Source of the DNA: Azoarcus sp. CIB
GTDB lineage: Bacteria > Pseudomonadota > Gammaproteobacteria > Burkholderiales > Rhodocyclaceae
Assembly (NCBI RefSeq): GCF_001190925.1
Contig: NZ_CP011072.1
Coordinates: forward strand, 2,852,001-2,916,000
Reading direction: 5' to 3'
DNA: 64,000 nt
A model generated the notes under the pieces. The model ran no database searches. It had not been told where the DNA came from and saw only the letters and a program-made list of their open reading frames with translations. The translations under genes were made by a program, and so were the position numbers. This document shows, one piece after another, positions 16,028 to 58,503 of this stretch (positions are counted from its first letter, which is position 1; the number at the start of each line of letters is the position of its first letter).

Positions 16028-17461
16028 CTAGTTGTCCTCGGCGGTGTGTGGCTTCTCCGTGCATGCGCGGTGATACGCGTCGATCAGCGAACGCGTGAGC
16101 GACCACGACGCCGGATGTCGCAGCAGGGCCACAACGGGGTCGTCGGCTTCCCCGTCGCCCCCCTCAGCCGACAGGGCGAGCTGCACCAAGAGCCGGTGCG
16201 CCCCGTGGCGTTCGGGCTCTCCGGACGCGTCGGAGGGCATGCGAAGCGGCTCAACGCTGAATCCCCCCCGCCGGCCGGCGTCCTGGCGAATGCAGTCCGA
16301 GAGCTTGAATGCGGCAGCGAAGTCGCCCAGCCGCCTCGAAAAGCGCGTGCCGGCCCGCCCCGCGGGGGTCATTCGCGCAGCGTGTCCGGTGCCGTCCGTC
16401 GCCTCGGGCACCGCCTCCTTCGGGGGCTCGGTTAGGAGGCGGTGGATCTCCGCAAAAGCAAGCTGCCCCTCGGCGCCGGCGACCGCCACGAGCGCACGCT
16501 CCACGGCCGCTTGCACGCATTGCGCGAGCGCCGCGAACTGGGCGGTCATGCGAGACAGGATCATCTCGACCTCGGGCTTGGTGAGCCGCGGCGGCTCGTC
16601 CATGTCGCGAACGGCATTGATCCCCGTCGCCACCTCGGCGATGAGCTCGTCGAAGGCGGTCTTGCGCACGTAGGGGGCCAGGTTGATCGCATCGGCAAGC
16701 TTTTCCAGGCACCCGAAACGGCTTCGAATGGCCCCCGCGCTCTCGTGGGTGAGGTGCGGGCCGATCGGCGCCAGGTAATCCACTGCGAAGAGGAGATTGG
16801 CGGCCGTCGCGCCATGAAGCTTCAATCCGCAACCCCGCGCGCGCTCCGCTAGCTCGCGCAGCGACAGAGGCCGCTTCAGCTCGCACTCGAGCTCGCTCTT
16901 GAGGAGCGCCACCCCTCGCCCCCGCTCCCAGAACGTGATGTCGCCTCGATTCTCGTTCTCGGCCAGATGCGCCGCAATGACATCGCTTTCACTCACCCAC
17001 GGGCGCACCACCACGTGGATCCATTCGTAGCGGGGATCATGGGTCTCAAGCCACAGCTCCTGCATGATCTGCAGCCGCGTGTTGCCGCCGAAATAGCACA
17101 TGTACCGCCCGGCACCGGGCCGGCGCGTCACCGAGAGGGCTTCGGTGAGGCCGCCGCGCGATTCGATCGATGCGCGAATGTCCGCATAGCGCGGATTGGT
17201 CCGGATTCGTGGGTTCTTGTCGTAGCAGTCGATCTCCATGCAGCGCATCAAGCTCCAGCCGTCCACGTCCTCGCCCGGCTGGAGGTCGGCCGCGGCGTTG
17301 GTCGGCCCCTTGACCGCCAGGCTATGCTGGGCGAGCAGCGCGCGACGCTCCCCGGTCGTGGCATTGGAGGACGCTTGCGGCTGGAGCTTTCCTCGCTTTT
17401 CCATGTGCTCGGCCAGCTCCTTGACCGAGATGGAGTCAGGCAATCGCGTTCTGGGCGTCAT
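16028..17461 (-). CDS. parB: ICE-type ParB partition protein
   Basis: 477 residues, matching the long ParB form of PFGI-1-class elements (TIGR03764 type). The N-terminal ParB/sulfiredoxin-like domain includes DCYDKNPRIRTNPRYADI, then the signature SRGGLTEALSVTRRPG and FGGNTRLQIMQEL, a variant of the ParB box. A predicted helix-turn-helix region follows (LRELAERARGCGLKLHGATA), then a long helical C-terminus. The chosen ATG overlaps parA by 26 bp, as is common for coupled parAB pairs. The role is element partition and maintenance in the excised or replicating form; no parS repeat was identified nearby. Confidence 0.85.
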   Translation of the reverse strand: MTPRTRLPDSISVKELAEHMEKRGKLQPQASSNATTGERRALLAQHSLAVKGPTNAAADLQPGEDVDGWSLMRCMEIDCYDKNPRIRTNPRYADIRASIESRGGLTEALSVTRRPGAGRYMCYFGGNTRLQIMQELWLETHDPRYEWIHVVVRPWVSESDVIAAHLAENENRGDITFWERGRGVALLKSELECELKRPLSLRELAERARGCGLKLHGATAANLLFAVDYLAPIGPHLTHESAGAIRSRFGCLEKLADAINLAPYVRKTAFDELIAEVATGINAVRDMDEPPRLTKPEVEMILSRMTAQFAALAQCVQAAVERALVAVAGAEGQLAFAEIHRLLTEPPKEAVPEATDGTGHAARMTPAGRAGTRFSRRLGDFAAAFKLSDCIRQDAGRRGGFSVEPLRMPSDASGEPERHGAHRLLVQLALSAEGGDGEADDPVVALLRHPASWSLTRSLIDAYHRACTEKPHTAEDN

Positions 17462-18341
17462 GGTCACCGCCAACCTCGCAGGGGGCTCCGGGCGGCACAC
17501 CGGCGTGGATGCCGTCGAGGCTCGGAATGAGCTCCCACAGGAGCGCATGCATTGCAGGACACGCCTTGACCGGGTCGACCCAGTGGACCGGGACCTGGGC
17601 AGTGGCAGCATTGCGGTATGCAACGGCGTGCGGGATGACCGTCTTCAGGAGCAGGACCTTGCACTTGAGTTGCTGATAGCTCTCGCAAATGGCCTTGCCG
17701 ATCTCACGTGCATCGCGGGTGTTCTCGTGACGGTAGATCATCGCCAGCATTTGCGGCACGGAGATGCCGAATGCAGCAGCCGTTTCGACGCGGTTCAGCA
17801 ATTCCTCAGTGCCCGACAGGAACTCGCGCGCGGAGAGGATATCGGGCGAGATCGGCGAAAGGAGCACATCGGCTGCCAGGACTGCGGCATCCTGAAGGTG
17901 CCCCACCGCGCCCTGGGTGTCGATGAGCACGACGTCGTAGTGCTCATGCAGCAGCGGACTGCGCAAGGCGAGCTTGATGCGCAGCGCGCTGTCCATGCGC
18001 GGCGCCAGCCAGTCCTGGAGCGTCCCTTGCGGCGCATCGGAGATGACGATGTCCAGGCAGCCATTCGGGTTGAGCCGCGGCTGGCGACGCAGTGGCATGG
18101 GCGCGAGCGCGAAGTCGATAGTCGAAATGCAGTCGTCTGTGAGCGCGCCCTGCTTGATCATTTGCGTCAGTCCGTGCCGCGCCCTCTTGGCAATGGGGTA
18201 ATAGCGACTGAGGCTCGGCTGCACATCGGCATCGACCAGCAAGACACGCATGCCGATGTCAGCGAGCAGCGCGCCGAGGTTAGCGGTCAGGGTGGATTTC
18301 CCGACGCCTCCTTTAGTCGATACGGTGCTGTAGACGATCAT
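17436..18341 (-). CDS. parA: ParA/Soj-family partition ATPase
   Basis: 301 residues with the deviant Walker A motif STKGGVGKST at the N-terminus, the A' aspartate in VLLVDADVQPSLS and the Walker B-like VVLIDTQGAVG. The start at 18341 follows GGAGG by 3-4 bp; upstream in-frame codons to 18428 lack a ribosome site. It partners the overlapping parB. In related elements this gene lies at one extremity of the ICE, whereas here the MobH relaxase gene precedes it on the same strand, a less usual order. Confidence 0.92.
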   Translation of the reverse strand: MIVYSTVSTKGGVGKSTLTANLGALLADIGMRVLLVDADVQPSLSRYYPIAKRARHGLTQMIKQGALTDDCISTIDFALAPMPLRRQPRLNPNGCLDIVISDAPQGTLQDWLAPRMDSALRIKLALRSPLLHEHYDVVLIDTQGAVGHLQDAAVLAADVLLSPISPDILSAREFLSGTEELLNRVETAAAFGISVPQMLAMIYRHENTRDAREIGKAICESYQQLKCKVLLLKTVIPHAVAYRNAATAQVPVHWVDPVKACPAMHALLWELIPSLDGIHAGVPPGAPCEVGGDHDAQNAIA

Positions 18342-18591: not shown

Positions 18592-20742
18592 TCACGAGGA
18601 TGCACCGGATTGCTCGGACGAGTCGGGATCGACAAAGGACACAATGTTCGGATTCGATGGCGGGACAGGATTGAACCAGTGCTCGGGGTGCTTGATCACG
18701 ACGGCTGCGAGTTTTCCTACGCGTTTTCCGCCGCGGCCGAGAACGCCGAAGTGATGAACGTTCGAGTTTCCGGGCCCGACCAAGTGCCAGCGCGCCTTGA
18801 TGACCTGCCGCTGGATGCCGATGCCCAGCTTGTCCGACGGGCTCGCATCAGGATCCATCCCGTTGCCGTCGTCACCGTAGAGCGCCGCGAAGTCGCGGAA
18901 TGTCCGCGGGGAGACGAGTGCCATCCCTTCTGGCACGAAATGGACCGGTGCGCCGGCTTCGTTGTAGGGGATGGATCCATCAGCGATCCCCTGTTGCAGC
19001 CACGCCATGAAGCGAACGGCTGCATCGCTGGGCGTCTCGTGAATGGACTTGGCGTCGTCGGTGTCCGACTTTGGCACGGATGCGAACGGAGTAACGGGTC
19101 GCGTGGCTGAAGGCGGTTGGCGGCGGGGCCTCCCGGATGTCGTGCCCGCGGATGTCACCGAGTCGTCATCCGAGAGGAATTCGTCTTTTCGGCCGAGATT
19201 CGCGGTCGTGGCTGGTACCTCGTGCCCCTTGGCTTCGCTGGTCTTCACCTCGCTCGCCGGCTGGTCACGACCCGTGGATGGCCTGGTCGCCGCATGGGCG
19301 GGCTTGGGAGGAGGAATATCGGGCGGCGTCAGCGGACCCGAGGCGCGTTGCCGCTCAGGGCGATCACCGGGCTTTGGTGCCCCGCCCTGGCCGTCGCCCG
19401 GTGGTTCGTCCGCTCGCTTGTCCCGTGTCTTTCGGGGCGGTTTGACGACGAGGTCGCCATCGAAGTCGGACGGGTAGTCGTCGGCCGAATCGAAGAGCTT
19501 CGCCAAGGGGAACTTCAGCATCGCGAACTCGTGGGCGTAGCCCTCGCCGCGGACCTCCACGTACCAAATCGCCTGACCGGTGTCGGGGTTGCGCTCCAGC
19601 AGCCCATAGTCCTGCCAAGTGTCGAACAGCCGGTCGTTCTTGGCCGGACCGGGCATGCTCGCGCCATCATCCGGATTGGCGTGCGCAATCTCTTCCCGGA
19701 CCGTGTCCGCGAGCCGCTTCGCCACAAACCAGGCTGCGCCAGCGCCGATCCAACCTGCCGCACCGTCCCGGTTGAGCGGCAACGCACCTTGGCGCAGCAG
19801 CCGGCGTATGGCGTCCATCAGTTGGTCGACCAGCGGGACCGCTGTCGCAGTCGCGAACTGGTTGCGTGGCCCATGCTGCAAGTTGCTCGCGGCCGAGCGG
19901 CGATCGGCCTGGCGCACGATCTCGGTCAGCACCCCGGTTGCGTCATCGCCCGACCAGGCAGCCTCGAGCTGGCGCATCACCGACGGTTCGCGCGCCACAA
20001 AGGTCAGGGCTGTTGCAGGGACGATCCTCGGCGCCAGCACCAGCGGCAGGCGACGGTGCGCACCGTAGTTGCGTTCGGCTTTCGGCGCGAATCGCACCTC
20101 GTATTCGACCGCGCCGGCGGTCGGCATGTCGCCGGATACCGGAAGCCATTGCCGTCCGGGGCCGCCTGGTCGGTCGGCGACACTCACCCGCAAGTCGGTC
20201 ATCGGTTTGCCGATGTCGTGGAACAGCGCGGCGAGGATGACGGCGTAGGTCCAGTGATCGCGCTGGGCGTCGATCGCCTCGGCGGCGCCGCCCTTGGGCA
20301 GCAGGTATCCATTGCGCAAGGTGACCGCTGCATGGAGTACCTCGATCGTGTGGGCGGCCAAGCCGCCGACATGGGCGTGATGGTGCGCTTCGCTGGCCGG
20401 CAAGAGCTGCACGAACCGCAGGTAGCCGAGGATCGCGGGCGCGACGTCGCGATCCCAAGTGGATTGGCTCAGTTTCGATTCACGATGGATCTGTTGCAGC
20501 GCGTTCGAAAGCTTGCATACCTGGACCAGGGTCGGCGCGTCGAGGACCCTGAGCCAGCCGCTTCGGCTGGCGGCCAGACCGGGGGCGGCAAGGGCACCGG
20601 TGGCCGGCGCTCCCGCCGTCGCCTGCTCCGCATCGGCATCGGCCGGACGTTGCCGCACGGCCCGTTCGCGGTAGATGGACCAGCCGAGCCAGCCGGCCAG
20701 CGCTGCCGCAGCCAGGAAACATGCGGCGGCAAGCGCGGCCAT
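18592..20742 (-). CDS. MobH-family relaxase (TraI_2 type)
   Basis: DNA-nicking relaxase of 716 residues expected to cut oriT and pilot the strand into the type IV channel. After a membrane-like N-terminal helix (residues about 3-22), the TraI_2 domain shows the three-histidine motif of MobH relaxases (H120-H122 with H124, in SEAHHHAHVGG) and the HD pair H175-D176 in ALFHDIGKP. A proline/charged linker (about 470-600) leads to a TraI_2_C-like domain (AVRFMAWLQQGIADGSIPYN and later VHFVPEGMALVSP). The ATG is just downstream of the preceding stop. Loss of the N-terminal helix would not affect the call. Confidence 0.9.
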   Translation of the reverse strand: MAALAAACFLAAAALAGWLGWSIYRERAVRQRPADADAEQATAGAPATGALAAPGLAASRSGWLRVLDAPTLVQVCKLSNALQQIHRESKLSQSTWDRDVAPAILGYLRFVQLLPASEAHHHAHVGGLAAHTIEVLHAAVTLRNGYLLPKGGAAEAIDAQRDHWTYAVILAALFHDIGKPMTDLRVSVADRPGGPGRQWLPVSGDMPTAGAVEYEVRFAPKAERNYGAHRRLPLVLAPRIVPATALTFVAREPSVMRQLEAAWSGDDATGVLTEIVRQADRRSAASNLQHGPRNQFATATAVPLVDQLMDAIRRLLRQGALPLNRDGAAGWIGAGAAWFVAKRLADTVREEIAHANPDDGASMPGPAKNDRLFDTWQDYGLLERNPDTGQAIWYVEVRGEGYAHEFAMLKFPLAKLFDSADDYPSDFDGDLVVKPPRKTRDKRADEPPGDGQGGAPKPGDRPERQRASGPLTPPDIPPPKPAHAATRPSTGRDQPASEVKTSEAKGHEVPATTANLGRKDEFLSDDDSVTSAGTTSGRPRRQPPSATRPVTPFASVPKSDTDDAKSIHETPSDAAVRFMAWLQQGIADGSIPYNEAGAPVHFVPEGMALVSPRTFRDFAALYGDDGNGMDPDASPSDKLGIGIQRQVIKARWHLVGPGNSNVHHFGVLGRGGKRVGKLAAVVIKHPEHWFNPVPPSNPNIVSFVDPDSSEQSGASS

Positions 20743-20747
20743 GGGGA

Positions 20748-21206
20748 TCAGCCCTGGCGATTGCGGATCTGAGCCGCGCAGAACTGCGCCAGCAGCCACT
20801 TCTGCAGCACGTCCGACGGTGGCGATGGCCGCTCGGACTCCCAGACCTCGACAGTCGTCCCTCGGCAGAACGAGGAGAAGGTTTCGGCCAGCGGCTTCCA
20901 CTTTTCGTCGTCGCGTTTCGCGCGGTACCGGCAGAACGACAGGGTGACCAGATCCGCCGCGAGCTGGGCCGGATCAGCCGGCCGCAGGGCCTCCACGTAA
21001 CGCGCCAGCAGGTCGCGGACCGTCAAGACCGGGTCATCCTCCGGGTAGAGGTACGCTTCCAGGCCATCGTATCGTCCAAGCCAGCACAGCAGCACGTTGC
21101 GCCATCCCGGCTCTCCAAGGCCCTCCAGGAAATGACCGATGGTCATGACGGCCTGGGTACGGGCCTCCTGCTGGTGCGGGGGAATTGGCGGGGGCAGGTC
21201 GTTCAT
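20748..21206 (-). CDS. Conserved-looking ICE protein of unknown function
   Basis: 152 residues, soluble and mostly helical (HFLEGLGEPGWRNVLLCWLG, then a long helix around PVLTVRDLLARYVEALR). I do not recognise the family. It is the first gene of the minus-strand relaxase transcript, with its stop 5 bp ahead of the relaxase ATG, so a role as an accessory factor for relaxosome assembly is possible. The ATG at 21206 follows AGAGGTG; upstream in-frame sequence to 21293 has no ribosome site and enters the divergent control region. Confidence 0.68.
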   Translation of the reverse strand: MNDLPPPIPPHQQEARTQAVMTIGHFLEGLGEPGWRNVLLCWLGRYDGLEAYLYPEDDPVLTVRDLLARYVEALRPADPAQLAADLVTLSFCRYRAKRDDEKWKPLAETFSSFCRGTTVEVWESERPSPPSDVLQKWLLAQFCAAQIRNRQG

Positions 21207-44893: not shown

Positions 44894-44963
44894 CGGCATT
44901 TCGGCACATTCGCACCTTTGTCGAACTGTGCGCCATGCCCCTGACAGCAAAGGACCTTCGCTA

Positions 44964-45000
44964 CTTATCCACAGCTCTATCCCCAGTTTCTGTGGACAAG
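44964..45000. other. Inverted pair of DnaA-box-like sites
   Basis: A perfect DnaA box TTATCCACA (44965-44973) faces TGTGGACAA (44991-44999, complement TTGTCCACA, one change). The arms CTTATCCACAG and CTGTGGACAAG form an 11-bp inverted repeat with one mismatch. It lies in the 374-bp gene-free stretch 44894-45267, about 1.3 kb upstream of replication-like genes. Confidence 0.55.
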
Positions 45001-45120
45001 CGCGTTGGCGCCGGCGCGATTCGCATTGGCGTGAGCTCGGAGAGGCCGCGCACTGCCACAAGGGGTGCCGTCCGACATTGAAATCGTGCCACGCGCCAAC
45101 TAGCATGTCTTCAACGCCCA

Positions 45121-45190
45121 GCCGCGCGGCTGCGTTGCGTCCGGTCAGCCCCTGTAACCGGAACGGCCTTCGGGCTCGGGGTCAAGGATC
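45121..45190 (+). ncRNA. Structured leader element, copy A (upstream of radC)
   Basis: Begins GCCGCGCG and has stem 1 CCGGT/ACCGG closing the 11-nt loop CAGCCCCTGTA (45141-45161), then a second hairpin GGCC-TTCG-GGCT type (45165-45176) and CGGGGTC. Copies B (48281-48340) and C (63661-63725) share the loop while the stem pairs differ but still pair. It starts about 150 nt and ends 78 nt before the radC start. It may correspond to the known radC RNA motif; I could not compare with the Rfam model. Confidence 0.65.
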
Positions 45191-45267
45191 AGTTTCTCGT
45201 CAATCCCGTGGGGAGTTGTTTTCCCGCGGGAACACGGCGCTCCCCGCATTTCTCCAAGGAGACGCCG

Positions 45268-45858
45268 ATGTTGTCCTTCTTTTCCTCTCAAACGTCCCTT
45301 GCGGATGCCGCACTGCTCGAGCGCTTCTTCGGCCCCGAAGCCGAGGACATCTGGGAGCACTGCGATGGATCCTGGAGCAAGATCGTCGAACTTGCCCGGG
45401 AGCCGCGCACCCCGGCATGGGAGGCGCTCGCCTGCGCGATCGAGGTTCTGCACCGCAGCTTCGCTGAGCAACTGACAACCCGGAACGTCCTCGACTCGCC
45501 TGATGTCGTCAGGCAGTTCCTCCGGACGTTCTTCGAGGGGCTGCCCTACGAGGTCTTCGTGGTCCTGTACCTCAATGCCCGAAACCACCTTATCCGCGCC
45601 GAAGAGGCGTTCCGCGGCACGCTGACCCAGACCAGCGTCTATCCCCGCGAGATCGTGCGCCGAGCGCTCGAGCTTCGCGCAGCCGGCGTGATCTTCTCGC
45701 ACCAGCACCCGTCGGGCGCGTCGGAGCCTTCGACGGCCGATGAGCTCCTGACCCGGCAACTGAGGGAGGCACTCGCCACGGTCGATGTGAAGGTGCTCGA
45801 CCACTTCGTCATCGCAGGCACTGCGGACGTGTCCTTCGCCCAGCGGGGGCTCCTGTAG
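45268..45858 (+). CDS. radC: RadC-like JAMM-domain protein
   Basis: 196 residues, mobile-element type without the usual N-terminal UPF0758 helix-hairpin-helix. JAMM/MPN+ metal motif: H145-x-H147-PSG...D158 in SHQHPSGASEPSTAD, with an upstream glutamate (EVFVVLYLN). Function of RadC is unsettled; ICE-borne copies are common and may act on DNA or antagonise host defences. The ATG follows AAGGAGA. The leader contains the structured element, and a perfect hairpin follows the stop. Confidence 0.92.
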   Translation: MLSFFSSQTSLADAALLERFFGPEAEDIWEHCDGSWSKIVELAREPRTPAWEALACAIEVLHRSFAEQLTTRNVLDSPDVVRQFLRTFFEGLPYEVFVVLYLNARNHLIRAEEAFRGTLTQTSVYPREIVRRALELRAAGVIFSHQHPSGASEPSTADELLTRQLREALATVDVKVLDHFVIAGTADVSFAQRGLL

Positions 45859-46303
45859 TCTTGCCTATCCTGCGGCCACCGTAGCCGTGGCGTCGATCCG
45901 TCAGGGGAATTCGCCAGCGAATTCCCCTGCACTTGCCAAACCACGGTCTGGCCGGTATTTTCGTCCTGTCTCGAAGGCGCAATGCCGCCACTCGAGACCC
46001 GGCGGGGACGCTCTTGATCTCTCGCTTCGCGCGGCACTTGCGCATTTCCTTGCTCGTCGACCGGCGCCTCCCGCCGCTCTGACCTCGACCCGTCCTGATG
46101 CCCCGCCCCGCGGCCGATGCAATCGCCATCGGACTGCCTTGGCATGTATCGACCATCTCGGACCACGAATGCCAGCGAGGAAAGCACATGGAGGAATCAC
46201 AGGCAGCATATCCCGGGCGTCAATTCGACGGCTTGATTCACGCCGATCAAGAGATGCGCTGTCCTCCTCGACCCACGGCCCGCGCGGGTGAGGTAGCGTC
46301 TTC
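45859..46303. other. Gene-free 445-bp stretch between radC and the replication pair
   Basis: No convincing gene on either strand. It contains the strong palindrome at 45902-45929 and, before the replication gene, a possible leader with no repeat that I can support. Confidence 0.5.
45902..45929. repeat. Perfect 13-bp inverted repeat after radC
   Basis: CAGGGGAATTCGC-CA-GCGAATTCCCCTG, 43 bp after the radC stop. No U-tract follows on either strand, so besides a factor-assisted terminator it could be a protein-binding palindrome. Confidence 0.7.
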
Positions 46304-47260
46304 GTGAGCATCAAGGTCATGTCCCTCGTGTGGGAAGGTTTCCCTGCGTCCGGAAGCGAGATGCTGGCAATGCTCGCCCTCGCCGACTGGTGCAATGACG
46401 AGGGCGGGAGCCTCCACCCATCGATGAAAGCTGTTGCGGAAAAGATCCGTGTGTCGGAAAAGCAGGCCCGTAGGATCATTCACGGCTTTGAAGAGGAGGG
46501 ATACCTCAAGGTGGTCGGGCATGCCAATGGTGGCGCGCCCGGCACCACCAAGCAGTATCAGCTCAACGTCGCGAAGCTAAAGGGGTTGGCGGACGGGGCG
46601 GCAGCCCGAAAGACGGCTCCCGTCGGTGTCACCCCTCCCGCCGATGTCACCCCTCCCCCCAATGTCACCCCTCCCGTCGTTGTCACCCCTCCCACTCAGG
46701 GGTGCGGAGGGCTCCCGCCCATGGGAGGGGAGGCCTCCCATGGGTGTCCCGAGACGCCTCCCACCCATGGGAGCCAAACCGTCAGTGAACCACCAATGAA
46801 CCACCAGTTAACCGTCAGGGGGACGGCGCCGTGTTCGGAGCCAGAACGCCTCCCTGCTGTCGCCAAGGCGCCAGCCCCCCAGCAGGATCCGGCCGGCGAG
46901 ACGCGCCTACAGGCCGCGTGCCGGACGACCTGGGCGGCCTACCGGAACGCCTATGCAGGCCGCTACGGCGCCGCCCCAGTTCGAAACCAGAAGGTCAGTT
47001 CGCAGGTGAAGCAGTTCGTGCAGCGCATCGGCTACGACGAATCACCCTTGATTGCCGCGTGGTTCGTGCAGCACCCGGGGAGCTACTACGTTGGCCGCAT
47101 GCACGACTTCGGCTGCCTGCTGAGCGACGCCGAGAAGTTGCGCACCGAGTGGGTGACGGGAAGGCTCATGACCGCCGGCAAGGCGCGCCAGTCCGACAGA
47201 GCCGGCACCACCATGGCCGCCCTCGCCGAGGTGCTGGCCGAACGAGGAGAGTCACTGTGA
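46304..47260 (+). CDS. Lambda O-like replication initiator candidate with an embedded repeat array
   Basis: 318 residues from a GTG start. Residues about 10-85 form a winged helix (LADWCNDEGGSLHPSMKAVA, EKIRVSEKQARRIIHGFEEE) of the type seen in phage/plasmid replication proteins. Residues about 108-131 are four copies of xVTPPx, encoded by four near-identical 18-bp DNA repeats. A proline-rich linker leads to a C-terminal domain (FVQRIGYDESPLIAAWFVQHP). The next gene overlaps by 4 bp and looks like a loader partner. Layout (N-terminal DNA binder, iterons in mid-gene, partner gene next) resembles lambda O/P. Initiator function is inferred. Confidence 0.65.
   Translation: MSIKVMSLVWEGFPASGSEMLAMLALADWCNDEGGSLHPSMKAVAEKIRVSEKQARRIIHGFEEEGYLKVVGHANGGAPGTTKQYQLNVAKLKGLADGAAARKTAPVGVTPPADVTPPPNVTPPVVVTPPTQGCGGLPPMGGEASHGCPETPPTHGSQTVSEPPMNHQLTVRGTAPCSEPERLPAVAKAPAPQQDPAGETRLQAACRTTWAAYRNAYAGRYGAAPVRNQKVSSQVKQFVQRIGYDESPLIAAWFVQHPGSYYVGRMHDFGCLLSDAEKLRTEWVTGRLMTAGKARQSDRAGTTMAALAEVLAERGESL
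46627..46693 (+). repeat. Four iteron-like direct repeats, period 18 bp
   Basis: TGTCACCCCTCCC starts at 46627, 46645, 46663 and 46681, always identical over 13 bp with 5 variable bases between. Identical codon choice in all four units (GTC ACC CCT CCC) suggests recent duplication or selection on the DNA itself. Confidence 0.85.
46718..46773. repeat. Inverted repeats flanking the iteron-like array
   Basis: CCCATGGGAGG (46718-46728) and CCTCCCATGGG (46734-46744) are perfect arms; a third unit CCCATGGGAG is at 46764-46773. A less GC-rich tract with two copies of GAACCACCA follows (about 46786-46806). Together with the iterons this resembles an origin layout. Confidence 0.7.
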
Positions 47261-48159
47261 GCGCGAACACGCTGAAGGCCATTGCCATGACGGCCGAACT
47301 GACCGGGACCGAGCTATCCGCGGCGGCACTGAAGGTCATGGATGCGGACCTGTCGGCCTACCCCGACGCCGACGTACTGCGCGCCCTGGAGCGTTGCCGC
47401 AAGGAACTGAAGGGTCGCCTGACCGTGGCCGCCGTGCTCGAGCGGGTCGCGGAGCTCGATAGTCGCCCTGGCGCGGAGGAGGCGTGGGCGACCGCCCTTT
47501 CCGCGGACGACGACGCCGCGACCGTGGTATGGACCGACGAGATCACGCAGGCGCTGGCGGTGGCTAGGCCGCTCCTTGATGCGCGCGACAAGGTGGCGGC
47601 GCGCATGGCGTTCTGCCAGGCGTACGAGCGTCTGGTGCGCGAGGCGCGCGAGGCGAGGTTGCCATGCCGGTGGTGGGCGTCGCTCGGCCATGACCCGCAA
47701 CGGCGCGCGGCGACGCTCTCTGCGGCCGTCGTGGCGGGGCGGATCACACAGGAGGCCGTCCAGCCCTTGCTGCCCGCGCCGGCGGACGGCGACGCGGTGG
47801 TGGCGTCGCTCATCGGCAACGACGACGCGAAGCTGCTCGCCCACGTTCCGGAGGATGCCCGCGAGACCGCGACGCGCGGCCTCAAGCGCCTCCGGGCCCA
47901 CCTCGCCGAACTGGGGGCCCAGGCGGCGAATCTCGACGCGCAGCGCGCGGCCGATGAGCGAGGGCGGCAGGCCGCGGTGGCGGAACGCAAGGCCAGCATG
48001 TTCCGCGCCGCGCAAGAGCGCATGAACGGCATGGGTTCGACGCGGCCCTCCCCTTGTGCCGAAGAGCCGGCCCACACAGAGGGCTGCGTGCATGCCGACT
48101 GCTCGAATCACGCCAGCCCGTCCAACGCTCGCATCCGGTCAGACCCTGGTACGCGGTAA
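47257..48159 (+). CDS. Replication partner candidate (phage P-like position)
   Basis: 300 residues from a GTG overlapping the upstream stop. An N-terminal helical domain (LSAAALKVMDADLSAYPDADVL, split here as ALKVMDADLSAYPDADV) and the block ATVVWTDEITQALAVARPLL, then KVAARMAFCQAYERLV, are of a kind I associate with genes following O-like initiators in prophages. A long coiled coil (about 205-255) and a disordered tail end the protein. No Walker motif is seen, so it would be a loader or adaptor rather than a helicase. Function inferred from context. Confidence 0.55.
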   Translation: MSANTLKAIAMTAELTGTELSAAALKVMDADLSAYPDADVLRALERCRKELKGRLTVAAVLERVAELDSRPGAEEAWATALSADDDAATVVWTDEITQALAVARPLLDARDKVAARMAFCQAYERLVREAREARLPCRWWASLGHDPQRRAATLSAAVVAGRITQEAVQPLLPAPADGDAVVASLIGNDDAKLLAHVPEDARETATRGLKRLRAHLAELGAQAANLDAQRAADERGRQAAVAERKASMFRAAQERMNGMGSTRPSPCAEEPAHTEGCVHADCSNHASPSNARIRSDPGTR

Positions 48160-48280
48160 CCACGAATCAACAGCCCTTTCCGAGGAAGGCCGCCCTCGCC
48201 CCCCGACCATCCTTAATCCTTGAATGCCAGCCTGGCATGAACCACAATTGGATGACATTCTCCAGCACCGGCTCCTCGTA

Positions 48281-48703: not shown

Positions 48704-49094
48704 TCGACACCGCCCGCGCAGCCAGCATGCTGCAATAATGCCTTGCCGATATTCGACTGAAGCACTATCGTAAAGCCGTCCAGTCGACATTTCCTGCTCT
48801 CGCTCCCCTCGCTAAGCGACGCCTCTTCGACCCTTCGAAGCAGCTTCGCCTCTTGCTTTCCCTTCGCTGCTGTCTGAGCGACTCGCCTAGGCGGGTTGCC
48901 TCGTCTCGTTGGATCCCTCGCGGCCGGCGCATGCCGGCACAGTGTCCAGGCGTTCCGCGCCTGGCGTCGCTCCGCTTTCGCGATCGGTGTCCGCCCGCCT
49001 CCACGCCCCGTGCCTGGCTGCGACACGTCGAAAAGCCAAGAACCACGGCCGAGACATTTTTCGGCCACCGGCAACCGAGACACGGAGAGGAACA

Positions 49095-49991
49095 ATGCAC
49101 ACGACACGCAATCCCCCGGAACACCCGCATGGGTGGAATTGGAATCAACGGCGCAGCGTCCGGCCCGCGCGCCGGCTCCATCAAGCCACGGACGCAACGG
49201 CTCGCTCGCACCTTCGGATCGGGCGAGACCTCCGACGCGCCGTCGAGCATGACGAGTTCGTCCTTCACTACCAGCCCGAGATCGACGCAAGCACTGGCCG
49301 CATGGTGGCGGCCGAGGCGCTGATCCGCTGGCAGCACCCCCAACTCGGCATGATCCGCCCCAACACCTTCATCCCGGTCGCGGAAGACCAAGGACTCATC
49401 GGCAAGATCGGACAATGGGTGCTTGAGACCGCGTGCGCGCAGCTTCACGCGTGGCACGCCGCCGGCCATGACCTGCGGGTCGCGGTCAACTTCTCGGTCG
49501 AGCAATTGCGCCGGCGCGACATCGCCGACACGGTCGCCAACGCACTCGAACGATTCGACCTGCGACCCGATGACCTGGTAGTCGAAATAACCGAGAGCAT
49601 TTGCATGCGCGCCAACGATCGCGCGCGGGAGAACGTCGCCCGCCTCGCGCATCTGGGCATACGGCTGGCCATCGACGACTTCGGCACCGGCTACTCCTCG
49701 CTAAGCTACCTCAAGCGCATACCGGTCCGCATCCTGAAGATCGATCGAAGCTTCGTCGTCGATCTCGCCGACCGCGCGGATTCGACAATTGTGCGAAACA
49801 TCATATCGCTCGCCCATGAACTGGATCTGATCGTCATCGTGGAAGGCGTCGAGACGGCGGCTCAGCATGAACTCCTGCGCATCATGGGTTGTGACATGGT
49901 CCAGGGCTACCTGGTTGGCAAAAGCCTGCCACCGGCCCTGTTCCACGACGCGTTTCTCGCGCCCCGACAGCACACGATCGTCGAACCATAG
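49095..49991 (+). CDS. Stand-alone EAL-domain c-di-GMP phosphodiesterase
   Basis: 298 residues: a basic N-terminal tail of about 40 residues and one EAL domain. Catalytic elements present: AAEALIRWQHP, VNFSVEQLRR, VEITESI, AIDDFGTGYSSLSYL, LKIDRSF and VEGVET. It should hydrolyse c-di-GMP to pGpG, lowering the biofilm signal and favouring motility or contact behaviour. There is no sensor domain, so activity would depend on expression or on partners. The ATG follows GGAGAGG. Cargo gene of the ICE. Confidence 0.9.
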   Translation: MHTTRNPPEHPHGWNWNQRRSVRPARRLHQATDATARSHLRIGRDLRRAVEHDEFVLHYQPEIDASTGRMVAAEALIRWQHPQLGMIRPNTFIPVAEDQGLIGKIGQWVLETACAQLHAWHAAGHDLRVAVNFSVEQLRRRDIADTVANALERFDLRPDDLVVEITESICMRANDRARENVARLAHLGIRLAIDDFGTGYSSLSYLKRIPVRILKIDRSFVVDLADRADSTIVRNIISLAHELDLIVIVEGVETAAQHELLRIMGCDMVQGYLVGKSLPPALFHDAFLAPRQHTIVEP

Positions 49992-50229: not shown

Positions 50230-50472
50230 TCACGAGCTCTTCTTCGTCTTCGCTATCCCGCGCAGTTCGCCGAGAATCGTGGCGGCTTTCGCTTCGGTGC
50301 CGAATGCGAGGTTCAGGAGTACCTGCACCGGGCCGGGGATGTCGCGGCCGGCTTCGTACCGACTCCCACCACTTTGCGTGGTTTGAAACGGCGCCCAGAA
50401 CTGCGCTTGGTTCAGTCCCGCCTTGCGCCGTAGTTCGCGAACGTCTTTGCCGGAGTAGTTCTTGAGCTTCAT
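50230..50472 (-). CDS. XRE-family helix-turn-helix regulator
   Basis: 80 residues, a single Cro/CI-like domain: VRELRRKAGLNQAQFWAPFQ, then SRYEAGRDIPGPVQVLLNLA. The recognition helix region departs slightly from consensus (TTQSGGSRYE). The size and partner-like gene upstream on the same strand recall HigA/MqsA-type antitoxins, but no toxin family is recognised. It ends with a lysine-rich tail. Confidence 0.82.
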   Translation of the reverse strand: MKLKNYSGKDVRELRRKAGLNQAQFWAPFQTTQSGGSRYEAGRDIPGPVQVLLNLAFGTEAKAATILGELRGIAKTKKSS

Positions 50473-50502
50473 GACGCGTCTCGAATGTTCCACGCGCATA
50501 TT

Positions 50503-52549: not shown

Positions 52550-55500
52550 ATGATTTTCAGCGAAGACGCACGGGTCAAAATTCCGTGCATCCTGCATCTG
52601 GTCCGGCTTGGCTACAGTTACCACTCGCTCAAGAATGCCGTTTGGGACGAAGAAACCAATATCTTCCCCACGCTTTTCAATGAAGCCATTGCCCGCATCA
52701 ACCCTGATTTGAATGCGGAAGACGTCACCCGATTGCTGGCCGACGTCCAACTACTGCTGGACAACGAAGACCTCGGCAACGCCTTCTATGACCGGCTTAC
52801 CGAGCGTTCCGGCGTCCGCCTGATCGACTTCGAGAATTTCGACAACAACAGCTTTCACGTCGTTACCGAACTGACCTGCAAGAACGGTGACGATGAGTTC
52901 CGGCCCGACATCACCTTGCTCATCAACGGCATGCCGCTGGCCTTTATCGAGGTCAAGAAGCCCAACAATCGCGAAGGCGTGCTGGCCGAGCGCAACCGCA
53001 TCATCACGCGCAGCCGCAATCCAAAATTCCGGCGCTTCATCAACATCGCGCAGTTGATGGTCTTCTCCAACAACATGGAGTACGACGACGGCTCGCCGCA
53101 GCCCATCGAAGGCGCGTTTTATGCCAGCCCATCCTATGACTCGCCCGTCTTCAACTATTTCCGCGAAGAAGAAACGCTGGACCTCAGTCAGCTTTTGGCG
53201 GAGGAAGATGACACCCTCGAAAACGAAGTGCTGCGCGATAACAACCTCAACGTCATCAAGCACAGCCCCGAGTTTCTGAGTAACAAATCGCCAGATACGC
53301 CAACCAACCGCATCTGCACCTCCCTGTTCAGTCGTGAGCGGCTGTCCTTCCTGCTGCGCTTTGCGCTCGTCTATGTGAACGAGAGCGACGGCCTGCACAA
53401 ACATGTGATGCGCTACCCCCAACTCTTTGCCACCAAGGCCATCAAGAAGAAACTCGATGCCGGGGTGAACAAGGGCATCATCTGGCATACCCAGGGCAGC
53501 GGCAAGACCGCACTGGCGTATTACAACACCCGATTCCTCACTGATTACTTCCAGCGCCAGGAGGTGATTCCGAAGTTTTACTTCATCGTCGACCGGCTTG
53601 ATCTGGCTACGCAGGCGCAGCGTGAATTTTCCTGTCGCGGTCTGGTGGTACATACCATCGACAGCCGCGAAGCCTTTGCCCGCGACATTAAAACCACGCA
53701 GGTGCTGCACAACCACAGCGGCAAGCCGGAAATCACCGTAGTTAATATCCAGAAATTTCAGGACGACCCGGATGTGGTGCGCACCGAGGATTACGACTTC
53801 AGCATCCAGCGCGTCTACTTTCTTGATGAAGTGCACCGCAGCTACAACCCGCAGGGCAGCTTTCTGGCCAACCTCAGCCAGTCCGACCGCAACGCCATCA
53901 AGATCGGTCTCACCGGCACGCCGCTGCTGGGTGACGATTACAACTCGCGCGCCCTGTTTGGCGACTACATCCACAAGTATTACTACAACGCCTCCATTGC
54001 CGATGGTTACACCCTGCGCCTGATCCGCGAGGAGATCGCCACCAACTACAAAATCTCGCTGCAAGAGGCGCTCGCCGCCGTCCAGTTGCAGCAAGGCGAT
54101 ATCGACCGCAAGCTGATCTACTCGCACCCGCAATTTGTCGAGCCCATGCTCGATTACATCGTGAGTGATTTCGAGAAAAGCCGCAGCGCGCTGGGCGATG
54201 CCAGCATCGGCGGCATGGTAATCTGCGACAGCGCCGATCAAGCCAAACAGATGTTCGACATCTTCAATACGGTCTATGCCGCCCGGCCATCACCCGCATA
54301 TGCCGCTCAGGACTCCGCGCAAACCGTGATCGCCGCGGCGCAGCCTGACAGCTACGCCGCCCGCACCCTGCTGAAAAACCGCGTCAGGAACGCCGCGCTG
54401 ATCCTGCACGACATCGGCAGCAAGGACGAGCGCAAGCAATGGGTAGAAGACTTCAAGGCCGGCAAGATCGATCTCCTGTTTGTCTACAACATGCTGCTCA
54501 CCGGCTTTGACGCCAAGCGCCTGAAAAAACTCTACCTGGGCCGTGTCATCAAAGCGCATAACCTGCTGCAGGCACTCACCCGCGTCAACCGCACCTACAA
54601 GGATTTCCGCTACGGCTACGTGGTGGACTTTGCCGACATCCGCAAGGAATTCGACAAGACCAATAGAGACTACTTTGACGAATTGCAATCCGAGCTGGGC
54701 GACGAGATCGAGCACTACTCCAACCTGTTCAAATCGGCCGAAGAAATCAAGCAAGAAATCGAAGCCATCAAGGACATCCTGTTCCGCTTCAATATCGAAA
54801 ACGCCGAAGAGTTTTCAAAACAACTCAGCCAGATTCAAGATCGTGCCACCGTGCTGGCACTCAAAAAAGCGCTCGCCGATGCCCGCAATCTCTACAACCT
54901 GATCCGCCTGCAAGGCGACTACGAGCAACTGCAGCAGCTCGATTTCCACAAGCTGGGTCAGCTCTACCGCGAAACCTGCAACCACCTCGATCTGCTCAAC
55001 CTGAAAGAAACCATCGAATCGGCCACCGACACCAGCAATCTGCTCAATGTCGCCCTGGAAGAGGTGATCTTCAAATTTGCCAAGATCAGGGAAGAAGAGC
55101 TGGTCCTGGCCGACCAGCTAAAAAACACCCTGCGCCAGACGCGCGAAGCCCTGGCGGACAATTTCGACCAGCAAGACCCCAAATTCGTCACCCTGCGCGA
55201 AGAGCTGAAACGGCTGTTCAAGAAAAAGAAACTCAGCGAAGTCAGCCAGGAAGAGATGACCGCCAACATCGGCGCGCTCAATGCGATTCACGACAAAGTC
55301 AAAGAGCTGAACCGCCAGAACAACCTGCTGCGCGCCAAATACCAGGGCGATGCCAAATACACGCGCATTCACAAGCGCCTGCATGAGCGCGGCGCGTTCT
55401 CGGAAATCGAGCGCCGCCTGTTTGAAGCCCTCAATGGCGTCAAGCAGCAGGCCGACGAACAGGTGCTGCAAAACACCCAACTGCTCAATAACGAAAGCTA

Positions 55501-55678
55501 TTTCGAGCGGATGATGCAGCCCATCGTCATCGGCGAGTTCTCCACCCGCCAGCACATCAAACTCACCCCCGACGCCAGCCGCAGCATCAACCAGCTGGTG
55601 GTGGCCGAATACATGCATGAATTTTCCGCAGGCGCCCGCTTGGGCGGCAGTCGTAACACTGGAGCACACCCTTGGTAA
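52550..55678 (+). CDS. hsdR: Type I restriction endonuclease subunit R
   Basis: 1042 residues. Translocating nuclease subunit of the HsdRMS complex. PD-(D/E)xK nuclease: D120 in RPDITLLINGMPL and E134-VK136 in AFIEVKKPN. Helicase motifs: Walker A WHTQGSGKTALAY near residue 316, DEVH box (YFLDEVHRSYN) near 424 and GLTGTPLLGDD near 454. A long coiled C-terminus (about 740-1000) contacts the methylase core. It is the first of four overlapping or closely spaced genes. The DNA of the cassette appears less GC-rich than the transfer region. Confidence 0.95.
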   Translation: MIFSEDARVKIPCILHLVRLGYSYHSLKNAVWDEETNIFPTLFNEAIARINPDLNAEDVTRLLADVQLLLDNEDLGNAFYDRLTERSGVRLIDFENFDNNSFHVVTELTCKNGDDEFRPDITLLINGMPLAFIEVKKPNNREGVLAERNRIITRSRNPKFRRFINIAQLMVFSNNMEYDDGSPQPIEGAFYASPSYDSPVFNYFREEETLDLSQLLAEEDDTLENEVLRDNNLNVIKHSPEFLSNKSPDTPTNRICTSLFSRERLSFLLRFALVYVNESDGLHKHVMRYPQLFATKAIKKKLDAGVNKGIIWHTQGSGKTALAYYNTRFLTDYFQRQEVIPKFYFIVDRLDLATQAQREFSCRGLVVHTIDSREAFARDIKTTQVLHNHSGKPEITVVNIQKFQDDPDVVRTEDYDFSIQRVYFLDEVHRSYNPQGSFLANLSQSDRNAIKIGLTGTPLLGDDYNSRALFGDYIHKYYYNASIADGYTLRLIREEIATNYKISLQEALAAVQLQQGDIDRKLIYSHPQFVEPMLDYIVSDFEKSRSALGDASIGGMVICDSADQAKQMFDIFNTVYAARPSPAYAAQDSAQTVIAAAQPDSYAARTLLKNRVRNAALILHDIGSKDERKQWVEDFKAGKIDLLFVYNMLLTGFDAKRLKKLYLGRVIKAHNLLQALTRVNRTYKDFRYGYVVDFADIRKEFDKTNRDYFDELQSELGDEIEHYSNLFKSAEEIKQEIEAIKDILFRFNIENAEEFSKQLSQIQDRATVLALKKALADARNLYNLIRLQGDYEQLQQLDFHKLGQLYRETCNHLDLLNLKETIESATDTSNLLNVALEEVIFKFAKIREEELVLADQLKNTLRQTREALADNFDQQDPKFVTLREELKRLFKKKKLSEVSQEEMTANIGALNAIHDKVKELNRQNNLLRAKYQGDAKYTRIHKRLHERGAFSEIERRLFEALNGVKQQADEQVLQNTQLLNNESYFERMMQPIVIGEFSTRQHIKLTPDASRSINQLVVAEYMHEFSAGARLGGSRNTGAHPW

Positions 55679-57324
55679 GCCAGCAATTTGAACAACGCAC
55701 CCGCGAGCTGATCGACAGCCTCAAGGCCATCTGTGCCGCTTATGGCCTGGGCAACGATGGCAACGAATTCAAGATCATCACCCAGGTTTTCCTCTACAAG
55801 TTTCTCAACGACAAGTTCGCCTTTGAGGCCAAGAAGATCCAGCCGGCACTCGCCAAGGCTGCGAGTTGGGAGGCAGCCATCGCGGCCATGAGTGCCGACG
55901 ACATGGAAATGCTGCAAATGCAGATGGGGCCGGATACCGCCCGCCTGAAGCCCGAGCATTTCATCGCCCACCTGTGGAGCCGCCAAACCGCGCCCGAATT
56001 CGCCAAACTGTTTGACGACACCCTGCGCGACATTGCCATCACCAACAACGACATCTTCGCCGTCAAAACCGACGGCGGCGCCAAGATCACGCTGTTTGAC
56101 CGGGTCAGCGAATTCATCACCGACCCGTCAAAGCGCGATGCCTTTTGCCGCGCCATTATCAACAAGCTGGGCGACTTCAGCTTTGAGCGCATCTTTAACG
56201 AAAAATACGATTTCTACGCCGCGCTGTTTGAATACCTGATCAAGGACTACAACAAGGACAGCGGCGGCAAATACGCCGAGTACTACACCCCGCACGCCGT
56301 CGCCAAGATCATGGCCGCCATCCTCGTGCCGGAAGTTGTGCGCGGCAAAATCAGCAATGTGAGCTGCTATGACCCCTCGGCCGGTTCCGGCACATTGCTG
56401 ATGAACATCGCCCACGCCATCGGCGAGCAGCGCTGCAGCATCTACTCGCAGGACATCTCGCAAAAATCTTCCAGCCTGCTGCGCCTGAACCTGATCCTGA
56501 ACAACCTGGTGCATTCCATCCCCAACATCATCCAGGGCAACACCATGCTCCACCCCTATCACCGGGAGGCACAGGGACAGGGACAAAAAAACGCGCTCAA
56601 GAAGTTCGACTACATCGTCAGCAATCCGCCGTTCAAGATGGACTTCAGCGATTTCCGCAATGAGCTGGACAGCAAAGAGCACCGCGAACGCTTCTTTGCC
56701 GGGGTGCCCAATATCCCGAAGCAGGCCGTGGACAAAATGGCCATCTACCAGCTCTTCCTGCAGCACATCATCTATTCGCTCAAGCCCGGCGGCAAAGCGG
56801 CCGTGGTCGTACCGACCGGCTTCATCACCGCGCAAAGCGGCATCGACAAAGGCATCCGCCAGCATCTGGTGGACAACAAAATGCTCGCTGGCGTCGTCTC
56901 CATGCCCAGCAACATCTTCGCCACCACCGGCACAAATGTCTCCATTTTGTTCGTCGACCGCAGCAATCAGCAGAACGTGGTGCTAATCGATGCCTCCAGC
57001 CTCGGCACCAAGGTCAAGGACGGCAAGAACCAGAAAACCCTGCTCTCCGAAGCCGAAGAAGACCGCATCATCGCTACCTTCAATGCAAAAGAGGCCGTAG
57101 AGGATTTCTCGGTGGTGGTCAGTTACGCTGACATCGCCGCCAAGAATTACAGCCTGAGCGCCGGGCAGTATTTTGACGTAAAGATCGAATACAGCGACCT
57201 GACCCCGGCGCAGTTTGCCGAAAAGATGCAGGGCTTTACCTATAGGCTGGATGGGCTGTTTAGGGAATCGGCGGGACTGGAGCGGGAGATCAAGAAGCAG
57301 TTGGCGGGATTGCGGTATGAGTAA
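55672..57324 (+). CDS. hsdM: Type I restriction-modification methyltransferase subunit M
   Basis: 550 residues; N6-adenine methyltransferase. HsdM N-terminal helical domain (IDSLKAICAAYGLGNDGNEF), SAM motif I CYDPSAGSGTLLMN near residue 233 and catalytic NPPF (DYIVSNPPFKMDF) near 318. The start is TTG at 55672, which follows GGAG by 7 bp and overlaps hsdR by 7 bp, giving coupling. C-terminal region contacts HsdS. Confidence 0.94.
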   Translation: MVSQQFEQRTRELIDSLKAICAAYGLGNDGNEFKIITQVFLYKFLNDKFAFEAKKIQPALAKAASWEAAIAAMSADDMEMLQMQMGPDTARLKPEHFIAHLWSRQTAPEFAKLFDDTLRDIAITNNDIFAVKTDGGAKITLFDRVSEFITDPSKRDAFCRAIINKLGDFSFERIFNEKYDFYAALFEYLIKDYNKDSGGKYAEYYTPHAVAKIMAAILVPEVVRGKISNVSCYDPSAGSGTLLMNIAHAIGEQRCSIYSQDISQKSSSLLRLNLILNNLVHSIPNIIQGNTMLHPYHREAQGQGQKNALKKFDYIVSNPPFKMDFSDFRNELDSKEHRERFFAGVPNIPKQAVDKMAIYQLFLQHIIYSLKPGGKAAVVVPTGFITAQSGIDKGIRQHLVDNKMLAGVVSMPSNIFATTGTNVSILFVDRSNQQNVVLIDASSLGTKVKDGKNQKTLLSEAEEDRIIATFNAKEAVEDFSVVVSYADIAAKNYSLSAGQYFDVKIEYSDLTPAQFAEKMQGFTYRLDGLFRESAGLEREIKKQLAGLRYE

Positions 57325-58492
57325 TGCCGCATCCAAACGCCTTGGTGATCTGATAAATCTCAAGCGTGGCTACGATCTTCCAGAAAATCAGCGCCGACCA
57401 GGCCCCTATCCAGTGATTAGCTCAGCTGGAATAACTGGCTATCACGACGAATACATGGTTGAGGGCACGGGTGTCGTAACAGGGCGATACGGCACGCTCG
57501 GGGAAATGTATTACGTTGATGGCAAATACTGGCCACACAATACTGCGCTTTATGTCACCACCTTCAAGGGTAATGACCCCAAGTACATCTACTACCTTCT
57601 GACCTGTCTTGGTCGAATTCGTACTTCGGACAAAAGCGCCGTTCCCGGCGTCAATCGGAACGAGTTGCATGAAATGGCGATACCGGTCGTTACCGACAAA
57701 AATCAGCAGCAAAGAATCGCCGCCGTCCTCTCAGCCCTCGACGCCAAGATCGACTCCAATAACCGCATCAACGCCGAGCTGGAGGCGATGGCAAAGACGC
57801 TGTACGACTACTGGTTCGTGCAGTTCGACTTCCCCGACGCCAACGGCAAGCCCTATAAATCCTCCGGCGGCAAGATGGTCTACAACGCCACGCTGAAACG
57901 GGAGATTCCGGCGGGGTGGCGTGCCGGCTTGGCGTCCGATTTATTTGACTTTAATCCGTCCCTGTCACTGCCATTGGGCACTGAAGCGAGTTATATCGAT
58001 ATGGCCGCATTGCCAGTAACCGGCTTCATGACTGAAGCACCTGAGTGCAAGGCATTTGCCGGTGGTATGAAATTTCAGAATGGAGACGTTGTAGTTGCAC
58101 GAATAACGCCCTGTTTGGAAAATGGGAAAACAGCGCTGATTTCTCTGCTGAAGGACAATGAAGTTGGTTTTGGTTCGACAGAATTCATTGTGATACGAGG
58201 CAAGAGCAAAACGCTTAGCGCATTTGCTGCCCAGTTGAGCAGATCGACATCTTTCAGGCAGTTTGCCATTTCCAACATGACAGGAACCTCTGGAAGAAAG
58301 CGCATCGACGCAAACACGCTAGAAACTTTCTCCATGCCGTTGCCACAAGAAGAGATTTTGTTGAAGTACGAGCAAATGGTTAGCGCTTGCTTTAAAAGGA
58401 TGACGATCAATGCCAAAGAAAACCAACAACTCGCCCAACTCCGCGACTGGCTTCTCCCCCTGCTGATGAACGGCCAGGTCACGGTAGCGTGA
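57317..58492 (+). CDS. hsdS: Type I restriction-modification specificity subunit S
   Basis: 391 residues with two target-recognition domains and two conserved helices: TRD1 (about 5-125), central helix (QQQRIAAVLSALDAKIDSNN), TRD2 (about 195-320) and C-terminal helix (YEQMVSACFKRMTINAKENQ). The DNA target cannot be read from the sequence. The start overlaps hsdM by 8 bp. The final LLPLLMNGQVTVA is typical of a complete C-terminus. Confidence 0.92.
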   Translation: MSNAASKRLGDLINLKRGYDLPENQRRPGPYPVISSAGITGYHDEYMVEGTGVVTGRYGTLGEMYYVDGKYWPHNTALYVTTFKGNDPKYIYYLLTCLGRIRTSDKSAVPGVNRNELHEMAIPVVTDKNQQQRIAAVLSALDAKIDSNNRINAELEAMAKTLYDYWFVQFDFPDANGKPYKSSGGKMVYNATLKREIPAGWRAGLASDLFDFNPSLSLPLGTEASYIDMAALPVTGFMTEAPECKAFAGGMKFQNGDVVVARITPCLENGKTALISLLKDNEVGFGSTEFIVIRGKSKTLSAFAAQLSRSTSFRQFAISNMTGTSGRKRIDANTLETFSMPLPQEEILLKYEQMVSACFKRMTINAKENQQLAQLRDWLLPLLMNGQVTVA

Positions 58493-58503
58493 AGGAGACC
58501 CGC

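Follow-up and report, generated by a model that had tools for sequence, protein, structure and literature searches.

The stretch of DNA analysed here, a 64,000-nt window from the aromatic-degrading soil bacterium Azoarcus sp. CIB (contig NZ_CP011072.1, positions 2,852,001 to 2,916,000), carries part of an integrative and conjugative element (ICE) in whose backbone two overlapping genes stand side by side. The first, starting with GTG, encodes a relative of phage O-type replication initiators (the O gene), and the second occupies the position in which phages carry the helicase-loader gene P (the P gene). An original prediction, made from the letters of the sequence, had placed a possible lambda O/P-like replication origin inside the first of these genes.

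The O protein matches PHROG 391, “replication initiation O-like”, over residues 1-299 (E 2.8e-21), its C-terminal domain also matches phrog_11527 (E 1.3e-20), and its N-terminus is HTH_36-like, with a match (E 1.1e-4) that falls under Pfam’s cut-off. The AlphaFold model (predicted local distance difference test, pLDDT, 76.7; 30 sequences) comprises a winged helix (residues 1-104), a low-confidence stretch (approximately 111-200) that is probably a disordered linker, and a helical C-domain (201-313). The foreseen winged-helix N-terminus is thereby borne out, and the kinship with phage O holds in family searches by way of PHROG 391, not of the Pfam lambda O model.

The most conspicuous feature of the O gene is an array of iteron-like units lying approximately 320 bp inside it. 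The core word, TGTCACCCCTCCC, occurs exactly at 46627, 46645, 46663 and 46681, and an exact search of the 5.26-Mb, one-contig genome returned these four copies alone. Among the 29 Tandem Repeats Finder rows for the window, the array scores highest, and no 13-mer recurred four times at equal spacing in any of 100 Markov-1 random 64-kb sequences, confirming the four identical 13-bp words that had been noticed at an exact 18-bp spacing. All four variable columns of the unit fall within its 5-bp spacer (chance 0.0016), and the units themselves show no clear palindromes. Comparison with the corresponding gene of Aromatoleum buckelii is instructive: the core codons are identical in 16 of 16 cases, the spacer codons in one of eight (six of the seven changes alter the residue) and the remaining O codons in 211 of 280 (Fisher P, 2e-5 for core against spacer and 0.028 for core against the rest).

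The array is in frame, with six codons per unit, and encodes Pro-rich VTPP peptide units; together, the iterons and the repeats that follow them (46622-46817) code for residues 107-172, mostly within the low-confidence linker. On these grounds, the DNA periodicity might be taken for a by-product of a repetitive, probably disordered protein linker. However, the window gene contains 30 direct 10-mer pairs within 60 bp, and none of 300 within-gene synonymous shuffles reaches this count (mean 1.47, maximum 14). In addition, the phage relatives code for quite different peptides while their DNA arrays are mostly kept, making a by-product of the linker a highly improbable explanation. The repeats are conserved at the DNA level.

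Inverted repeats had also been noticed after the iterons, and they are there: two exact CTCCC-N6-GGGAG palindromes, which are the only exact copies in the window, and a 12-bp inverted pair (46735-46746/46762-46773). At 46689-46704 there is a further copy with one mismatch; when up to two are allowed, the window shows no enrichment of the pattern (56 seen vs. 57 expected). Next come four AACCRYCA words, starting at positions 473, 484, 495 and 506 of the O gene, in a stretch (46764-46823) whose guanine-plus-cytosine (GC) content is 53-55% relative to a gene mean of 66%. The coordinates of these and other features are given in Table 1.

Table 1. Features of the O/P locus and of its host element, in window coordinates
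Feature	Position	Strand	Basis or remark
O-like replication initiator gene, 318 amino acids	46304..47260	+	PHROG 391; AlphaFold model
phrog_6028 gene in P (helicase-loader) position	47257..48159	+	phrog_6028, E 3.5e-68; start inferred from homologues
Array of four 18-bp iteron-like units, each with a variable 5-bp spacer and the constant 13-bp core TGTCACCCCTCCC	46622..46693	+	Repeat, shuffle and codon tests
Palindromic iteron-like site CTCCCGCCCATGGGAG	46712..46727		Exact CTCCC-N6-GGGAG
Palindromic iteron-like site CTCCCACCCATGGGAG	46758..46773		Exact CTCCC-N6-GGGAG
Four AACCRYCA words, 11-bp spacing; candidate unwinding tract, mildly AT-richer	46777..46817	+	Motif and GC profile
DnaA box facing a near-perfect one	44965..44999		Probably outside the origin; shared by the window and A. 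toluolicum, missing from A. buckelii and A. evansii
TraI_2 relaxase/helicase (rival replication initiator at the origin of transfer, oriT)	18592..20901	-	PF07514, E 1.9e-51
ParA-type ATPase match (PF13614), ICE partition gene	17781..18326 (genome 2869781-2870326)	-	Profile match
PFGI-1-class ICE ParB protein	16028..17623	-	TIGR03764, E 5.9e-45

The P gene belongs to a family, phrog_6028, that PHROG labels as of unknown function. Given the GTG start at 47257 indicated by homologue alignment, it overlaps the O gene by 4 bp (GTGA), as had been claimed; the open frame itself extends upstream of this codon. The P protein shows no match to the lambda P family (PF06992/phrog_109), and its AlphaFold model (pLDDT 85.9; 48 sequences) is nearly all helical. 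Relatives of both proteins were found in phages by tblastn (63 records for O and 62 for P, all below 60% identity). In eight of eleven phage or plasmid stretches examined around such relatives, the two are adjacent: Pavtok, PseuP_222, LESphi3, 8P, LASTA, PotUPM1, Parlo and a 44-kb plasmid record of P. aeruginosa. In F116, the C-domain family occupies a gene of its own that precedes the P relative. The P. aeruginosa record (CP137442.1) is a circular “plasmid” entry whose O/P pair sits among phage-type genes, and it is possibly a circularised prophage or a phage-plasmid. A single-sequence search of viral contigs with the P protein returned no relative; a profile search returned at least 589 viral contig stretches with one. 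Among the best 80 of these 589 loci, 74 have an upstream frame of at least 200 amino acids ending between 60 bp before and 45 bp after the P start, and of these neighbours 73 match PHROG 391 and all 74 match phrog_11527, the family of the window O C-domain.

A pair of phages bears on what the P-position protein may do. The O proteins of MD8 and LESphi3 have N-terminal parts that are nearly the same, and their ends differ. In LESphi3, the slot after O holds phrog_6028; in MD8, it holds a true lambda P (PF06992, 4.5e-31; phrog_109, “P-like helicase loader”, 4.2e-52). Judged by their sequences, LESphi3 and MD8 represent a natural loader swap, and because lambda P replaces phrog_6028 in the same slot, a loader role of the latter is supported, although not proved. 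The gene in the window is a probable loader gene: the part of the prediction that saw a P-type loader holds insofar as a phage replication-module family sits in the P position, and fails insofar as this family is not that of lambda P. More broadly, the swap suggests that phrog_6028, a common phage family of unlabelled function, has a helicase-loader role.

The same viral loci allow the DNA repeats to be followed beyond the window. From the 80 loci, six partial or short genes and two duplicates were skipped, leaving 72 distinct genes upstream of phrog_6028 relatives. In 65 of these, the repeats exceed those of synonymous shuffles, in that no more than two of 200 shuffles reach the observed count. 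Likewise, in a set of 43 distinct O homologues or fragments that includes the window gene, 25 have counts reached by two or fewer of 300 shuffles. The rows of both sets are not independent trials, because many are close relatives of one another. Repeat periods vary (15, 17, 18 and 21-23 bp), as do the words, which would follow if every initiator had a site of its own. The original prediction had held that homologues keeping the protein and losing the 18-bp periodicity would count against it; period and word do shift, which formally counts against it in part, yet arrays persist in the proportions just given. In up to 41 of the 72 phage genes, against approximately three in synonymous shuffles, overlapping 8-mers combine into CAATGCTTTCCTC, a further conserved DNA word; the count is uncorrected for kinship. 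The AACCRYCA word was found in at least two copies within 45 nt in 15 of 38 O homologues (at most three in 200 shuffles), this being the set in which the motif was first spotted; as a universal 11-bp unwinding motif it was rejected, occurring in one of the 72 genes of the independent set.

Many winged-helix proteins are regulators, and the top fold matches of the O model are mostly MarR-type regulators, with the DnaD N-domain and plasmid initiators also among the matches, all at E >0.001; a structure search by sequence profile gave matches confined to the N-domain, to general winged-helix proteins. It could be argued from this that the iterons are operators for the pair’s own operon or for other ICE genes, with no origin involved. 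We regard this as improbable, since the array lies well inside the gene, the partner gene comes from phage replication modules, the fold matches do include DnaD and plasmid initiators, and the families in question are named for O-like replication initiation.

The element that houses the pair is a PFGI-1/ICEclc-class ICE, as demonstrated by its class-specific conjugation and ParB models, a tRNA-adjacent integrase and attachment (att) repeats. Specifically, Pfam and NCBIfam models identify TraI_2, TraG-D_C, TraC_F_IV, TraG_N, PilL2, TIGR03746, TIGR03752 and TIGR03755, together with ParB TIGR03764, AcaB, DUF2857 and DUF1525, and the integrase gene lies 7.7-8.9 kb to the right of the window, beside tRNA-His. 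A whole-genome pattern search located same-strand copies of the 45-bp tRNA-His end at genome positions 2636351, 2683955, 2709219 and 2924976; if the last two are its ends, the ICE spans approximately 216 kb (2709219-2924976). A search for an exact att match of 14 bp or more in the 33 kb left of the conjugation genes found none. The four copies are spaced 47.6, 25.3 and 215.8 kb apart, and probably mark three elements inserted in tandem at tRNA-His, of which the window ICE is the largest. It is a second element of this genome, distinct from ICEXTD, which is reported as 173.8 kb long (PMC9960961, available text) and of whose published att word two exact copies stand 173,776 bp apart. The placement of the pair in an ICE with a ParAB module is therefore correct, the backbone encoding both ParA and ParB. 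Matches to DnaB_C occur in the genome at 652036 and 2262617 only, with none in the window ICE or ICEXTD, and bacterial topoisomerase matches at 51856 and 5056600 (inside ICEXTD) only. Judging from these profile matches, the window ICE seems to lack its own replicative helicase, and because no DnaB_C match lies inside it, an ICE-encoded loader would need host DnaB.

Related ICEs occur in three Aromatoleum strains. The window from 36.1 to 50.09 kb aligns to A. buckelii with short gaps, to A. evansii as far as 46652, where its contig ends, and to A. toluolicum as two contigs, one reaching 46652 and the other beginning at 46689. Both O and P are seen in three strains, the window’s included, and the fourth shows the first part of O. 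In A. toluolicum and A. evansii, the draft contigs break inside the iteron array, which may be longer or variable in these strains. The order TIGR03755-TraG_N-DsbC-DUF1525-SLT-RadC-O-P-EAL is also found in A. buckelii, and by gene order the O/P pair is a fixed backbone component of this ICEclc-class element. When 29 ICE proteins were compared with 135 loci, most of which cover only 1.5-10 kb per side, matches appeared solely in the four Aromatoleum loci and, as a distant SRAP match, in five others. P relatives turned up in one of 150 family genomes and in three of 369 class genomes (the window’s own included), and the match in one genome (G421) lies within a prophage, with portal and terminase genes nearby. 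In the tree, the P proteins of the three ICEs group together (100/98), next to that of a viral contig (L049) whose neighbouring genes are phage-type (repressor, O-like, NinG). From this, the most likely source of the pair is a phage.

A pair acquired from a phage by recombination could be an inert relic, the ICE copying itself only from oriT by way of its TraI relaxase. Indeed, the window ICE possesses TraI_2, ICEXTD in the same genome has no O/P pair at the thresholds used, and relaxase/oriT-dependent copying has been shown for ICEclc (PMC6561031) and SXT/R391 (PMC4489591), as far as the available text of both papers goes. Several observations argue otherwise. The O and P frames are open in both the window and A. 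buckelii, the ratio of nonsynonymous to synonymous substitution rates (dN/dS) between the two is 0.33 for each gene (0.10-0.28 for six ICE neighbours), the iteron core is unchanged codon by codon while the spacers diverge, and the pair holds the same backbone position in related ICEs. On balance, an inert relic is unlikely. Measured against A. buckelii, the synonymous rate (dS) is lower in O (0.22) than in P (0.38) or in the six neighbouring ICE genes (0.37-0.94). The iteron core cannot be the whole reason, because the N-terminal part of O is low as well (0.25).

The original prediction had also drawn into the origin a perfect DnaA box, TTATCCACA at 44965, that faces a near-perfect one, TTGTCCACA on the minus strand at 44991. 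The boxes exist, but their assignment to the origin is not supported, since the pair is absent from two of the four ICEs compared. A DnaA-led origin of vegetative replication (oriV) at this pair, with the O gene incidental, would account for two boxes facing each other. It is barely credible, given that A. buckelii and A. evansii, which retain O/P or its first part, are missing the stretch in which the boxes sit, and that DnaA-like boxes with up to one mismatch occur in the window at the chance level (24 seen vs. 25.3 expected). A DnaA-dependent oriV was rejected as a candidate.

We put at roughly 70% the probability that the O/P pair is a phage-derived replication module, now a stable part of the ICE backbone, that copies the excised circle in theta fashion. 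In such a module, the winged helix of the initiator would bind the iterons in its own gene, over the stretch that codes for the linker, and the bound initiator would open the adjacent tract of 11-bp repeats. The initiator C-domain would then recruit the P-position protein, which in turn would load host DnaB. The excised circle would thereby undergo theta replication, in addition to its usual relaxase/oriT replication and its partition by ParA/ParB. Replication by the O/P module is likely on the sequence evidence, and the predicted lambda O/P-like origin in an ICE gene survives in its O-like initiator, mid-gene iteron-like repeats, P-position gene and ICE backbone, without the DnaA pair and without a lambda P family member. 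It is tempting to go further and suggest that an ICEclc-class lineage adopted a complete temperate-phage theta origin along with its own DnaB loader, multiplying its circle independently of the relaxase and so possessing two replication starts; this we advance tentatively, at somewhat less than even odds.

Several results weigh against an O/P-type origin. Neither protein finds a Pfam lambda O or P model at E<=1, and two phages with O relatives, SfIV and MD8, have no phrog_6028 relative within the fetched stretch. Repeats clearly above the null are missing from 18 of the 43 O homologues or fragments, among them the partial fragments from A. toluolicum and from A. evansii, and ten from a 15-bp Erwinia-like group. 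The less GC-rich tract that had been claimed after the iterons exists, but it is only mildly AT-rich, and from 46420 the same gene drops to 47.5% GC. Zero synonymous change in the iteron core would arise by chance with P 0.06, so that its synonymous conservation, taken alone, is only suggestive and not decisive. Relative to A. toluolicum, dN/dS reaches 0.99 for O (residues 130-318) and 0.91 for P, compared with 0.13-0.26 for the neighbours and 0.13 for O residues 1-116; at a dS of approximately 0.02, this weighs against strong protein constraint, on few changes, and fits an inert relic. The structure of the P protein is similarly equivocal. A fold search of the PDB with the P model gave no significant match, and a structure search by sequence gave no convincing relative there. 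The comparison with known loaders yielded a weak G39P-like fold match alone: the model superimposes on SPP1 G39P (1no1) over 66 columns with a template-modelling (TM) score of 0.66 of the target and a root-mean-square deviation of 2.7, a match that ranks fifth of 23 (E 4.4), behind unrelated chains. The top BFVD match is named “Replisome organizer” (E 3.2e-4), with TM scores of only 0.26/0.32, and further matches, with weaker E-values, are named G39P and replication protein P.

The lambdoid origin provides the closest comparison. According to the available text of PMC7466680, it lies in the middle of gene O and consists of four (lambda) or six (Stx phages) iterons plus an AT-rich tract, the minimal site being a 19-bp imperfect inverted repeat. 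The window shares the mid-gene iterons, the looser tract after them and, in the loader position, a downstream gene that overlaps the initiator gene. Unlike lambda, it has PHROG 391 without the Pfam lambda O model, phrog_6028 in the loader slot, and a GC-rich 18-bp array with two palindromes, and it resides in an ICE, where no phage genes were recognised next to the pair. A related O-like C-domain and phrog_6028 pair is found in LESphi3, PotUPM1 and PseuP_222 of Pseudomonas and in Pavtok of Erwinia; in these four, the pair lies within a phage genome, and the iteron words differ from those of the window. In the three Pseudomonas phages, it comes after early regulators, of cI/Cro type or other, and before Nin, Q or other early genes.

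Among ICEs, the ICEclc/PFGI-1 class, including ICEXTD, shares TraI_2, ParB TIGR03764, PilL2 and the TIGR03746/52/55 backbone with the window element. Where the available text of the sources covers replication, ICEclc copying is lower without TraI or oriT1, although a few mutant cells kept extra foci (PMC6561031); SXT/R391 copying needs TraI, and the pKLC102-ICEclc group is said to be able to replicate (PMC4489591); and ICEHin1056 carries parA-dnaB-parB homologues (PMC3739013). TnGBS and SGI1 are, in the accessible part of PMC7826253, integrative elements with theta-type replication, a likeness to the window ICE; SGI1, however, uses a plasmid-type (IncN2/N3-type) RepA with four 16-bp iterons and an oriV downstream of repA, in contrast to a phage-type initiator with an in-gene array. 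No lambda-O-type origin in an ICE was among the literature matches listed, in which the coverage of subscription journals is limited. In short, the phage module is of a known type, and what is unusual is the element that hosts it.

Further genes accompany the pair on the right. An EAL-domain gene (48909-49991) adjoins O/P and is kept with the ICE backbone, and an RsaL-like regulator gene (50230-50499) lies beyond it. The ICE cargo includes a low-GC type I restriction-modification cluster (52550-59562), which also contains a gene for a YhcG-type nuclease; A. toluolicum has different DNA at this position, between flanking backbone parts.

An ICEclc-class ICE with a phage-type theta origin would, if true, weaken the distinction between ICEs, plasmids and phages, and the question of how excised ICEs persist in dividing cells would become testable by gene deletion. 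Such an origin, encoded within a protein linker, would also be a compact and GC-rich example of its kind. Finally, and independently of the ICE, the phrog_6028 comparison suggests a part in helicase loading for the family as it occurs in phages at large.

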